The notes under the pieces are model-generated. The model was not told where the DNA came from and made no database searches. It saw only the letters and a program-made list of their open reading frames with translations. From NCBI RefSeq assembly GCF_002835995.1, contig NZ_PJBZ01000052.1, positions 1 through 64,000 of the forward strand: a stretch of 64,000 bases of DNA, read 5' to 3'. Positions 57,885 through 62,193 of this stretch are shown here, piece after piece. The DNA is from Psychromonas sp. Urea-02u-13. Lineage in GTDB: Bacteria; Pseudomonadota; Gammaproteobacteria; Enterobacterales; Psychromonadaceae. Positions within the stretch are counted from its first letter, which is position 1, and every line of letters begins with the position of its first letter. A program made the position numbers and the translations under genes.

Positions 57885-59684
57885 TTAATTTTCATCCTTT
57901 GAATCTTCCTCGCTTGAGAAAAGTGCATCAATAAACTCTTTTGCGTTAAACTCGCGTAGGTCATCAATGCCCTCACCCGTTCCTATATAACGAATTGGTA
58001 ATTTAAATTTATCTGCAATTGAAAATATGATGCCACCTTTCGCAGTACCATCTAGTTTAGTTAATGTAATCCCGGTTAGTCCAACCGCTTGATTAAATAA
58101 ATTAACTTGGCTAATCGCATTTTGACCTGTGCCCGCATCAATCGTTAACATGATTTCATGAGGGGCAGTAGGATCTTTTTTACGCATAATACGGACAACT
58201 TTAGTCAGCTCATCCATCAAATGGTCTTTGTTTTGTAGGCGTCCTGCGGTATCTGCAATTAATACATCTGCACCACGCGCTTTAGCCGCATCCATTGCAT
58301 CAAATAAAACAGACGCACTATCAGCACCTGTTTGCTGTGCAATAACAGGGATATTATTTCTATCACCCCAAACCTGTAACTGCTCAACAGCGGCGGCACG
58401 GAATGTATCACCAGCGGCTAACATGACCGACTTACCTTGGCTCTGATATTGTTTTGCAAGTTTGCCAATCGTTGTTGTTTTACCAACACCATTTACGCCA
58501 ACCATTAAGATAACGTATGGAGATTTACTCTCATCAATCACCAGCGGTTTTTCAACTTCTTTTAGAATATCAGACAGCTCTTCTTTTAATAGACCGTATA
58601 ATGCATCGGCATCTTTAAGCTGTTTTCTATTCGCTTGTTCTGTCAGGCTATCAATGATTTTTAATGTCGTATCAACGCCAATATCCGCAACAATTAATTG
58701 TTCTTCTAGCTCTTCGAAAAGATCATCATCAATCTTTTTACCTTTGAATAGCGAGAATAAACCACTGCCAATACTGAGGCGGGTTTTAGTGAGGCTTTTC
58801 TTGAAACGGGCAAAGAAACCGAGAGCTTTGTCTTCTTTTTTCTTAACTGGCTCTTCTACAATTGGCTCAACGACTGCAGGCATGTTTTCTTCAAACATGA
58901 TCTCTTCGTAATAATCTTCACCAACCGATTCTTTTTTTTCAGCTTCTAATTTTTCAGCTTCTAATTTTTCAGCTTCTAATTTTTCAGCTTCTAATTTTTC
59001 AGTTTCTAATTTTTCAGCTTCTAGTTTTTCAGCTTCTAGTTTTTCAGCTTCTAGTTTTTTAGCTTCTAGTTTCTCAGCTTCTAGTTTCTTAGCTTCTAGT
59101 TTTTCAGCTTCTAATTTTTCAGCTTCTAATTTTTCAGCTTCTAATTTTTCAGCTTCTAGTTTTTCAGTTTCTAGTTTTTTAGCTTCTAGTTTCTCAGCTT
59201 CTATTTTTTCAGCTTCTAGTTTCTCAGCTTCTAGTTTTTCAGCTTGTGCTTTGTCAGCTTGTGCTTTGTCAGCTTCTAGTTTGTCAGCATCTGCTTTATC
59301 AGCTTGGGCTTTATCAGCTTGGGCTTTATCAGCTTGTGCTTTGTCAGCTTGTGCTTTATCAGCTTCTAGCTTTTCAGCTGCTAGCTTTTCAGCTACTAGC
59401 TTTTCAGCCTCTAGCTTTTCAGCGGCTAATTTTTCAGCTACTAGCTTTTCAGCCTCTAGCTTTTCAGCCTCTAGCTTTTCAGCGGCTAATTTTTCAGCAG
59501 CTAGTTTCTCCGTTTCGGAGTCATCATCAAAAAGAATGATCTCAACATCTTGATCTTCATTATTTAATGCTTCATCTCTAAGTGATTTTAGTAATGCGGC
59601 TTTTTCATTTGCTGCAGTTTCTTGCGGAGTCTCTGCCGTCGATTTTTTTCCAAACCAGGAAAACATGCCTTTCTTCTTTGCCAT
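57885..59684 (-). CDS. ftsY: SRP receptor FtsY with expanded repeat linker
   Basis: GTPase that receives SRP-ribosome complexes at the membrane. 599 residues (E. coli 497). The C-terminal NG domain (about 300-590) has GVNGVGKTTTIGKLA, DTAGRLQNK, TKLDGTAKGG and the targeting helix before it. The N-terminal part is dominated by about 190 residues (57-250) of KLEAE and ADKAQ pentapeptide repeats, highly charged, probably helical. The extreme N-terminus MAKKKGMFSWFGKK is the membrane-binding patch. First gene of ftsY-ftsE-ftsX. Confidence 0.97.
   Translation of the reverse strand: MAKKKGMFSWFGKKSTAETPQETAANEKAALLKSLRDEALNNEDQDVEIILFDDDSETEKLAAEKLAAEKLEAEKLEAEKLVAEKLAAEKLEAEKLVAEKLAAEKLEADKAQADKAQADKAQADKAQADKADADKLEADKAQADKAQAEKLEAEKLEAEKIEAEKLEAKKLETEKLEAEKLEAEKLEAEKLEAEKLEAKKLEAEKLEAKKLEAEKLEAEKLEAEKLETEKLEAEKLEAEKLEAEKLEAEKKESVGEDYYEEIMFEENMPAVVEPIVEEPVKKKEDKALGFFARFKKSLTKTRLSIGSGLFSLFKGKKIDDDLFEELEEQLIVADIGVDTTLKIIDSLTEQANRKQLKDADALYGLLKEELSDILKEVEKPLVIDESKSPYVILMVGVNGVGKTTTIGKLAKQYQSQGKSVMLAAGDTFRAAAVEQLQVWGDRNNIPVIAQQTGADSASVLFDAMDAAKARGADVLIADTAGRLQNKDHLMDELTKVVRIMRKKDPTAPHEIMLTIDAGTGQNAISQVNLFNQAVGLTGITLTKLDGTAKGGIIFSIADKFKLPIRYIGTGEGIDDLREFNAKEFIDALFSSEEDSKDEN
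58936..59515 (-). repeat. 15-bp minisatellite in ftsY
   Basis: About 38 copies of a 15-bp unit (AGCTTCTAATTTTTC and variants on the plus strand), coding AEKLE / ADKAQ. Two sub-blocks differ, one K-L-E-A-E and one D-K-A-Q-A. Open frames on the plus strand here are artefacts of the repeat. Confidence 0.9.
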
Positions 59685-59784
59685 TAATTAAAAACCTTAC
59701 TCACAACCAATCGACCTGCTAAAATAGCAAACCTAAAAAAAATTAAGCTCTATGTTACCACCATATCGCCGGACTAAAAATTAT

Positions 59785-60390
59785 ATGAGTCGAAATCAGC
59801 ATACTAAATCCAATGAAAAAAGCAGAAAACCGATCAAGGGCGGGTTTATTCGTCTGATCTCTGGTAAGTGGCGAGGAAAAAAGTTACCAGTCAAAGATAT
59901 AGAGGGGTTGCGCCCTACAACAGATCGCACTAAAGAGACACTCTTTAACTGGTTAATGCATGATATTAACGATGCAAATTGTTTGGATTGCTTTAGTGGT
60001 AGTGGCAGTTTAGCGTTTGAAGCTCTCTCTCGTTTCGCAAGAAAAGTCACGCTATTAGAAAAAGACAAAAGTGTGGTAAAGCAGTTACGCGAGAACTTAG
60101 CGGTGCTCAATGTTGATAACGCGACCGTGCATGAAGGTGATTCACTTAATTATCTTAAGCAGGTAGCGACCGAGCAGTACAATATTGTTTTTATTGATCC
60201 TCCCTTTAATAAAGGCTTAGTACAGCCCTGCTGTGACGCGTTAAATTCAAATGGTTATTTAGCGCCGGATGCACTTATTTATATTGAAAGAGAAGTTGAT
60301 TTAAGCGGGTTAACTCTCCCAAATTCATGGGAATTGCTTAAAGAGAAAAGCACAGGGCAAGTCACTTACCAATTATATCGCCAAGGATAA
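59785..60390 (+). CDS. rsmD: 16S rRNA (guanine-966-N2)-methyltransferase
   Basis: Methylates G966 of 16S rRNA. About 201 residues from ATG 59785. FIRLISGKWRGKKLPV, GLRPTTDRTKETLFNWL, the SAM motif LDCFSGSGSLAFEALSR and the catalytic DPPFN are present. The ATG at 59752 would add 11 residues that E. coli RsmD lacks, so I prefer the later one; neither has a clear ribosome site. Divergent from ftsY, the standard order. Confidence 0.95.
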   Translation: MSRNQHTKSNEKSRKPIKGGFIRLISGKWRGKKLPVKDIEGLRPTTDRTKETLFNWLMHDINDANCLDCFSGSGSLAFEALSRFARKVTLLEKDKSVVKQLRENLAVLNVDNATVHEGDSLNYLKQVATEQYNIVFIDPPFNKGLVQPCCDALNSNGYLAPDALIYIEREVDLSGLTLPNSWELLKEKSTGQVTYQLYRQG

Positions 60391-60392
60391 CC

Positions 60393-60656
60393 ATGAATTA
60401 TTTTATTCATTTTGCAAAAGTACTGATGGTACTTATTTGGGGCTTGCTCATCGCTAATATTTTATTTCCCTTCCCAGGAAAAGCGGAGCTCGTCTTTTAT
60501 ATTTTATTAGCCTTTGTTATTTTCATGCACCTCATTCAATTATTAATGATTTATGGTGCTTTTTCGGAAAAATTAAAATTAACAAAGTCAGAGGCATTGC
60601 AGATATTTGTATTTGGGATATTTAAATTATGGCAGATAAAAGGTCGTATTCAGTAA
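60393..60656 (+). CDS. yhhL: DUF1145 membrane protein YhhL
   Basis: 87 residues with two or three hydrophobic segments (about 5-25, 30-55). It follows rsmD by two bases, as yhhL does in E. coli. Function unknown. Confidence 0.88.
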   Translation: MNYFIHFAKVLMVLIWGLLIANILFPFPGKAELVFYILLAFVIFMHLIQLLMIYGAFSEKLKLTKSEALQIFVFGIFKLWQIKGRIQ

Positions 60657-60724: not shown

Positions 60725-60961
60725 TTAACAAAGATGCTCCTGAGGCATGCTAATCCCCTGTTCTGATTCAACAAACTTTCCCTTTGAAGCAAGAAAATCA
60801 ATCAAATCATCTGCCGTTAAATCACTTCCCATACACGTATGAAAACGCGCATCCGCACCGTATTGATCTGCAATATCAGATTTTAACGACGCTTTGCTGT
60901 AATTCTTAGCCGATTTAGCCATCATTTCCATCACTTGATGCCCGTGAATTGATTCGCTCAT
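60725..60961 (-). CDS. yecH: YecH family metal-binding protein
   Basis: 78 residues. IHGHQVMEMM, FHTCMGSDLTADDLIDFL and the C-terminal HLC match the YecH (DUF2492) family, with His and Cys residues likely binding a metal. Function unknown. AAGGAA ribosome site upstream. Confidence 0.9.
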   Translation of the reverse strand: MSESIHGHQVMEMMAKSAKNYSKASLKSDIADQYGADARFHTCMGSDLTADDLIDFLASKGKFVESEQGISMPQEHLC

Positions 60962-61052
60962 ACTTTTCCTTCCTGATTATAATTAATGATATAAACCCAC
61001 TATAACCAACTGAATAACTCAGGTATTGATGTAAAACAAATCGCCAGAAATG

Positions 61053-61633
61053 AAAAAAGGCGAATACCGTTAAGTATTCGCCTTTTTATAGTCTTATTGT
61101 TCATTCCGTTGAGTATTTCCACGCCCTTGTGGTTCCCTGACAATTGCTAATCTAAGCATTTTCCCATTTCTTGTTCCTTGAGAGTGTCCCTGATCCTTGT
61201 TAACAATCCTATTGTAACCGCTTCAACCTTGAAGGTGTCCCTAATCTAATCCGTTAGAGTGTCCCTGAGTCCTTATTAGCAATAAATCCTATTGCGCCTT
61301 TCTTGCTATAAATAGCCCAGAAAGTGTCCATAACTGTTGATCCAAGCTTTTCCTATACCTAATCCGTCTGGTATTCCTTCTTTCCTTGGTGTAATTGAAT
61401 CTATTACACTGCTTTGTTCCTAAAGCATCCTTAAAACAGCTCCGAGCTTAATTCCTTTTACCAATCCGTCTGGTAGTCCTGCTATCCGTAATGCGACTTC
61501 TATCACATACCCTCTTCTGAGGAGTTCCTTAATATGCTTATCCTAAGCCCGTTAACGCTGACTTCCCTTTAATACTTTAAAGCGTTTATCCCTTAACTTG
61601 TGAACAAGTATAAACAGCTCTAAAAAATACAAA
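61053..61633 (-). ncRNA. csrB: CsrB-family regulatory small RNA
   Basis: On the minus strand this gene-free region has about 30 GGA motifs in 580 nt, many in the loops of short hairpins: CTAACGGATTAG, ACAATAGGATTGT, ACCAGACGGATTGGT, GTTACAATAGGATTG. It shares the CAGGGACACT phrase with E. coli CsrB. It ends in a perfect hairpin GGCGAATAC-TTAACG-GTATTCGCC followed by TTTTTT (61053-61082). Such RNAs titrate the translational regulator CsrA. The start at about 61633 is inferred from a promoter (-10 TAAAAT, -35 TTTACA). Larger than E. coli CsrB (369 nt). No ORF of note. Function by homology; strong structural case. Confidence 0.88.
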
Positions 61634-61639
61634 CACTAT

Positions 61640-61669
61640 ATTTTATGATTAACTTTTTGAAAGTGTAAA
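61640..61669 (-). promoter_or_regulatory. csrB promoter
   Basis: -35 TTTACA (plus-strand 61664-61669), 18-bp spacer, -10 TAAAAT (61640-61645), giving a start near 61633. Sigma-70 type. Confidence 0.65.
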
Positions 61670-61761
61670 GATTATTAGCAATAAAATAGAAATGACATAA
61701 AAATCAACACGATAGTATTGCTTTATGTTTTTTTGATGACAATAACAAGCAGGTTTAAACG

Positions 61762-61779
61762 GATAAGTCTGCACTTACA
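61762..61779 (-). promoter_or_regulatory. GacA/UvrY/VarA-type box upstream of csrB
   Basis: TGTAAG-TGCAGA-CTTATC on the minus strand, compared with the known TGTAAG-N6-CTTACA upstream activating sequence: first half perfect, second half four of six. About 130-145 bp upstream of the predicted csrB start, the usual distance. Confidence 0.7.
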
Positions 61780-61832
61780 ATGGTCAATCTCTCACAAGAA
61801 AAAATTGCTCAGCAGAGGGGATAGTTATAATA

Positions 61833-61870
61833 AAAGGAGGATCATCGTTATTTTACTGATCCTCTTTCTT
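61833..61870 (-). terminator. Terminator of the ydbH-ynbE-ydbL operon
   Basis: AAAGGAGGATCA and TGATCCTCTTTC arms with a 14-base loop; on the minus strand followed by TTTTATTAT. It separates the operon from the csrB activating region. Confidence 0.75.
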
Positions 61871-61878
61871 TAAATGTT

Positions 61879-62193
61879 TTATTTAACTACCCATTGGCCA
61901 GATGCATTTTGGATATATTGACCAGCAAGTGATTTTTTGATCGCCTTTTCGCCCACCAGCACTGAAACCTGATCGACTGTCAGTTCATTTTTTTTAGCGA
62001 TTTGAGTGTATTTAACTAATCGAGCCTCATTAATGGCCTTAACTAATGTTTCTACTTCAGGTGAGCTTTCCACAACACCTAATAAACCATTCCTTTGCTC
62101 GCCAACTAACCCTTGCTCTTTTGCATCGGGAAGCTCAATCGCAAAGCTTGAAAAACTGAATACTAAGGTAAATAAAACTAATAATTTTTTCAT
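61879..62193 (-). CDS. ydbL: DUF1318 family protein YdbL
   Basis: 104 residues, signal peptide (about 1-18, SSFA-IELPDAKEQG). The conserved VKAINEARLVKYTQIAKKNELTVDQV and the C-terminal GQYIQNASGQWV match YdbL. In enterobacteria YdbL works with YnbE and YdbH in envelope lipid transport. Last gene of ydbH-ynbE-ydbL. Confidence 0.92.
   Translation of the reverse strand: MKKLLVLFTLVFSFSSFAIELPDAKEQGLVGEQRNGLLGVVESSPEVETLVKAINEARLVKYTQIAKKNELTVDQVSVLVGEKAIKKSLAGQYIQNASGQWVVK

Follow-up and report, generated by a model that had tools for sequence, protein, structure and literature searches.

The region analysed lies in the window, a 64,000-nucleotide stretch of Psychromonas sp. Urea-02u-13 DNA (contig NZ_PJBZ01000052.1, positions 1 to 64,000), between two minus-strand genes, ydbL upstream (end at 61879) and a yecH-like gene downstream (start at 60961). 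No ORF of 60 aa or more was found between them (60961 to 61879), and the longest ORFs overlapping the tract described below comprise 51 aa (plus strand) and 47 aa (minus strand), in keeping with a first-pass annotation of the sequence, according to which no ORF explained the region. The following features were assigned:

59752-60656, plus strand: genes rsmD and DUF1145, which form the conserved locus anchor
60725-60961, minus strand: yecH-like (DUF2492) gene, a separate downstream gene that is absent from the same place in relatives G002, G003 and G012
61053-61600, minus strand: predicted CsrB-type sRNA gene, RNA of about 548 nt with 30 GGA motifs, assigned on GGA density, homologues and compensatory hairpins
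61053-61087, minus strand: Rho-independent terminator with a 15-bp stem, a 4-nt loop and a T tail, showing compensatory changes
61053-61240, minus strand: 3' domain kept in all ten homologues, with an end resembling csrB 3' ends; basis of covariance model R1
61350-61487, minus strand: internal repeat with a unit length of roughly 102-105 nt, present in about 1.35 copies, halves 81% identical
61607-61612, minus strand: -10 element TATACT, kept in the alignment of the ten homologues
61701-61707, minus strand: TTGATTT block between activator site and promoter, (C/T)TGAWTT in most relatives
61762-61779, minus strand: TGTAAGTGCAGACTTATC, the TGTAAG-N6-CTTATC element of the first-pass annotation, present, unconserved and probably incidental
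61779-61796, minus strand: TGTGAGAGATTGACCATT, probable UvrY/GacA binding site, assigned on conservation in relatives, motif association and match to a published site

The minus strand of 61053-61637 was found to contain 30 GGA motifs, all of which fall within the predicted RNA (61053-61600), against one on the plus strand. This count, which agrees with the roughly 30 motifs first reported, exceeded those of all 2000 dinucleotide-preserving shuffles of 61053-61637 (16.8 +/- 2.6, maximum 24). Per 520 nt, the tract has the highest GGA density of the window on either strand, the window mean being 3.4 +/- 2.5. It is closed by the sole terminator of the region (61087-61053), whose stem and T tail bear out the terminator noticed at first pass.

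At the other end, the -10 element is TATACT in the homologues except G010, which has TATAAT, and is followed by CAAGT(T/A)AAGG. In the ten-homologue alignment the hexamer at -35 distance is poor, which fits an activator-dependent promoter. The sigma-70-like promoter proposed earlier was probably the match TTTACA-18-TAAAAT at 61669-61640. This match is present and its TTTACA is kept in seven of the ten homologues, but it was dropped as a promoter because TAAAAT is not conserved, in contrast to TATACT, which lies about 28 bp downstream of TAAAAT. As the -10 element is thus farther downstream than had been supposed, so is the 5' end, and the predicted transcript was corrected from about 580 nt to about 548 nt (61600-61053). 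As in the CsrB/CsrC/RsmY/Z class, the tract is non-coding, with a predicted promoter of its own and an intrinsic terminator.

The class also features a far-upstream UvrY/GacA site, and TGTGAGAGATTGACCATT is a probable one, with its centre about 188 bp ahead of the predicted start. It differs by one base from the UvrY/SirA site of Salmonella csrC, TGTGAGACATTGACCATT (PMC4682653), a likeness that concerns this published site alone. It shares the whole of its left half, TGTGAGAGAT, with the E. coli csrB site, TGTGAGAGATCTCTTACA, which is centred at -183/-182 (PMC4682653), and its right half is a weak palindrome match, as is that of the Salmonella csrC site. The pattern TGTGAGAGATYGACCATT was scanned against 296 genomes of the order, which yielded 16 exact copies in 11 genomes of two genera. 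All 16 precede, in the same direction, GGA-rich tracts (21-32 GGA per 400 nt), and the reversed control pattern had no copy in the 296 genomes. Three of the copies are in the window's own genome, each ahead of a GGA-rich tract. The first-pass annotation had likewise proposed a GacA-type site for the RNA, and this holds for the class of site, on sequence evidence, though not for the element chosen. TGTAAG-N6-CTTATC, which shares one base with the last base of TGTGAGAGATTGACCATT, is present here and occurs at the aligned positions of none of the nine relatives; in a one-mismatch search, 1.4 chance matches are expected per window. It was rejected as the activation site for want of conservation and is probably incidental. 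Between TGTGAGAGATTGACCATT and the promoter, the reverse complement of the TTGATTT block contains WATCAA and, by analogy with E. coli csrB (PMC4682653), the block may be an IHF site.

A local fold, restricted to pairs at most 60 nt apart, left 23 of the 30 GGA motifs mostly unpaired and placed GGA in the loop of 8 of 16 hairpins, in line with the hairpin-loop motifs described at first pass and with motifs lying mostly outside stems. Shuffled sequences, which also contain fewer GGA, had 11.2 +/- 2.7 accessible motifs and in no case out of 100 reached 23; the contrast in accessibility between GGA and other G residues was higher than in 100 of 100 shuffles. The mean GGA accessibility was 0.69, compared with 0.82 for E. 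coli CsrB and 0.80 for csrB1 of the same genome. In an alignment of the six long homologues, twelve hairpins, the majority with GGA in the loop, showed 92.6% paired cells, a value biased in their favour because they had been named from the window sequence. The changes on both sides of a pair are the stronger evidence: these numbered 13 pairs, against 5.9 in shuffles and 0-5 with the partners slid. Thus, the GGA motifs are mostly in loops or single strands and the hairpins show compensatory change. Some hairpins have no loop GGA, for example CCTCAGAAGAGG, at which place G015 and G023 have CTTCAGGA.

Proteins related to the product of the neighbouring yecH gene belong mostly to Psychromonas. Homologues of the RNA were sought with covariance model R1, built from the last 188 nt at the 3' end (61053-61240), in 24 Psychromonas genomes, namely the window's assembly (4.75 Mb) and the 23 others of the genus with which it groups. 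Ten of them gave matches above 90 bits, all at one locus: seven are linked to yecH, and three are at rsmD-DUF1145 without yecH. Among the carriers of the gene are P. marina, P. hadalis, P. ossibalaenae and P. aquimarina. At the rsmD locus of many other Psychromonas genomes the window-type RNA is missing, so the gene is not essential in the genus. R1 matches outside the genus were weaker (40-56 bits). The two inspected proved to be of csrB type, preceded by elements similar to that of the window RNA and with 3' ends that align with the window's; to judge from these two, other families are represented here by what seem to be their ordinary csrB genes. A search of a plasmid collection found nothing similar to the window RNA. 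As a separate observation, a genome of another family of the order (G056, locus L157, 400-1710) carries a tandem csrB-type pair, with a separate TGTGAGAGATC-type element and a separate terminator for each member.

The homologues differ widely in size. Those of G003 and G012 comprise 182-183 nt with 10-11 GGA and that of G002 has 387 nt with 22 GGA; others have 414 nt with 23, 464 nt with 27 and 531-548 nt with 28-31 GGA, and the largest, from G001, attains 778 nt with 53 GGA. GGA density is near-constant in all ten, at 5.1-6.8 per 100 nt. The G001 homologue (locus L048), whose sequence is a metagenome assembly, contains 4.2 copies of a 105-nt unit with 97% match, and the window unit is of about the same length. 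The size range is therefore partly due to a tandem unit of about 105 nt. An internal tandem duplication was also observed in another csrB copy of the window's genome (G000:C255:77585-78040; locus L005, about 2086-2600), where two slightly different versions of GTTAAGGAAAACAAAGGAACAAACTACAGGATG... are present; gain of repeat units is therefore not limited to the window RNA. Tentatively, and with rather more doubt than confidence, we suggest that an accordion of units of about 105 nt at one locus may, over evolutionary time within one genus, have tuned the valency of the sponge. If true, lineages could reset the amount of CsrA removable by a BarA/UvrY signal.

At the gathering threshold, Rfam gave zero matches in the whole window. 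The covariance search for CsrB suggested at first pass did return a match of RF00018 to the window RNA, albeit a sub-threshold one (22.4 bits, E 5e-4; gathering cut-off 71 bits), and the RNA was consequently filed as a divergent CsrA-titrating member rather than as an RF00018 hit. Weak Rfam matches to STnc40, L20 leader, isrC and Atu_C9 were rejected, each being far under its own cut-off; those to STnc40 and L20 leader depend on the terminator. Two better RF00018 copies are present elsewhere in the genome, at G000:C255:80242-80549 (64.9 bits) and G000:C255:77585-78040 (59.5 bits, with an extra overlapping 53-bit match). Since these too are below 71 bits, the cut-off is strict for the genus. 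No RF00018 match above it was found in 12 of the 24 Psychromonas genomes, and Rfam annotation will therefore miss even nearer-canonical Psychromonas csrB genes, which are often under the cut-off. The two C255 copies share with the window RNA the upstream element, GGA hairpins and a related 3' end, but they have regular CAGGATG loops, whereas the window RNA, at rsmD-DUF1145, has mixed AGGA, CGGA and AGGGA sites. The genome hence has at least three csrB-type genes, the single RNA pictured at first pass being, by its sequence, a divergent third one. In another Psychromonas, G006 (a single contig of 4.6 Mb), neither an RF00018 match at E 0.01 nor a window-type RNA at the rsmD locus was observed, and its Csr RNAs are either very divergent or missing.

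The arrangement of ydbL, the tract and yecH, all on the same strand with the RNA between the ydbL end (61879) and the yecH start (60961), would also accommodate two other readings in which GGA binds CsrA in cis: the tract could serve the yecH-like gene as a cis-acting leader or attenuator, or it could derive from the 3' UTR of the ydbL operon. However, G002, G003 and G012 keep the RNA directly after rsmD-DUF1145 without an adjoining yecH, with a kdsD-like gene upstream and a convergent DUF1145 downstream. It is thus rsmD-DUF1145 that anchors the locus, and the RNA is not a leader of yecH, nor does it come from the 3' UTR of ydbL. The yecH-leader reading was rejected on this synteny, and since a conserved -10, an activator site farther upstream and a terminator all belong to the RNA itself, we regard a leader or UTR origin as highly improbable.

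The divergence to below the Rfam cut-off, the hairpins devoid of loop GGA and the short forms of about 182 nt in G003 and G012 might instead reflect a decaying csrB duplicate that has lost transcription or CsrA binding. Yet the promoter element, the terminator and the hairpins are maintained with compensatory changes, and GGA density is steady across the ten homologues, which is not as expected for a pseudogene; decay is, in our estimation, just as improbable as a leader. Less credible still, to the point of being almost negligible, is the idea that the tract is a GGA-rich repeat of low-complexity or protein-coding origin that has no function as RNA: GGA-rich internal repeats of about 102 nt do exist, but there is no sizeable ORF, the GGA motifs are strand-specific (30 vs 1), and covariation accompanies fixed promoter and terminator elements.

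The cognate proteins of a Csr circuit are all encoded in the genome: a single CsrA, a UvrY 70% identical to that of E. coli and adjoining uvrC, and a BarA orthologue (48% over about 762 residues). A stop suspected in uvrY proved to be the gene's own terminal stop, and the gene is intact. What was observed comprises the anatomy of the sequence, its conservation and covariation, the association of the motif with GGA-rich tracts, and the genes for the circuit proteins. Because anatomy, conservation and context agree, we consider it very likely that 61053-61600 (minus strand) encodes a CsrB-type sRNA under UvrY that sequesters CsrA, as was first proposed. In favour of this reading, synteny is conserved, hairpins with GGA in the loop show compensatory change, a match to the UvrY site lies at csrB distance, the 3' end is csrB-like and the BarA/UvrY/CsrA set is complete.

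For such a CsrB-type sRNA, a plausible sequence of events can be outlined. BarA would activate UvrY (GacA) by phosphorylation, and phospho-UvrY would bind TGTGAGAGATTGACCATT about 188 bp upstream, with IHF probably bending the DNA between this site and the promoter. Bound UvrY would then turn on the promoter, whose -10 is good but whose -35 is poor, and the RNA of about 548 nt would fold as a chain of short hairpins and linkers displaying about 30 GGA. These motifs would capture several CsrA dimers, thereby relieving CsrA control of its mRNA targets, and the capacity of the RNA would have shifted in evolution through gain and loss of internal repeat units. Transcription, binding of UvrY and IHF, and capture of CsrA are thus what we infer for the window RNA, which by analogy most likely works as CsrB does.

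E. coli CsrB (RF00018) likewise has GGA in hairpin loops and linkers, its own terminator and a far-upstream UvrY site with TGTGAGAGAT at a similar distance, but it is found at a different locus and has little overall sequence similarity. The window RNA is longer and has more sites, as had been anticipated (about 548 vs 369 nt and 30 vs 22 GGA). A tested precedent for a divergent CsrB-type RNA is Pf1 of the marine gammaproteobacterium Pseudoalteromonas fuliginea, a Csr sRNA reported with about 21 GGA motifs that acts on CsrA, resembles E. coli CsrB little and was not found outside Pseudoalteromonas (PMC9927453). In Vibrio, extra csrB copies arose through duplication, are usually VarS/VarA-regulated and were detected by BLAST from one another (PMC6262261). 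The window's genome also has several copies, but differs in that one of them is strongly diverged and has a variable internal repeat number.

What is new is that a third copy lay hidden, that the activation site has been corrected and that valency at one locus spans a broad range. In the portions of the literature covered by our search, CsrB and Psychromonas were mentioned together only in passing, in Shewanella sRNA work, and a third, hidden Csr sRNA gene is now added for a Psychromonas. The Rfam CsrB model overlooks divergent paralogues, which the UvrY-site motif combined with GGA density finds directly. The four- to five-fold interspecies spread at one locus, both in length and in the number of GGA motifs, provides a natural series on valency versus Csr response. 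Elsewhere in the window, the FtsY-like protein encoded at 57885-59684 bears, in the N-terminal region, a long repeat of EAEKLEAEKL type, which in relatives (L121-L123) differs in unit and length.
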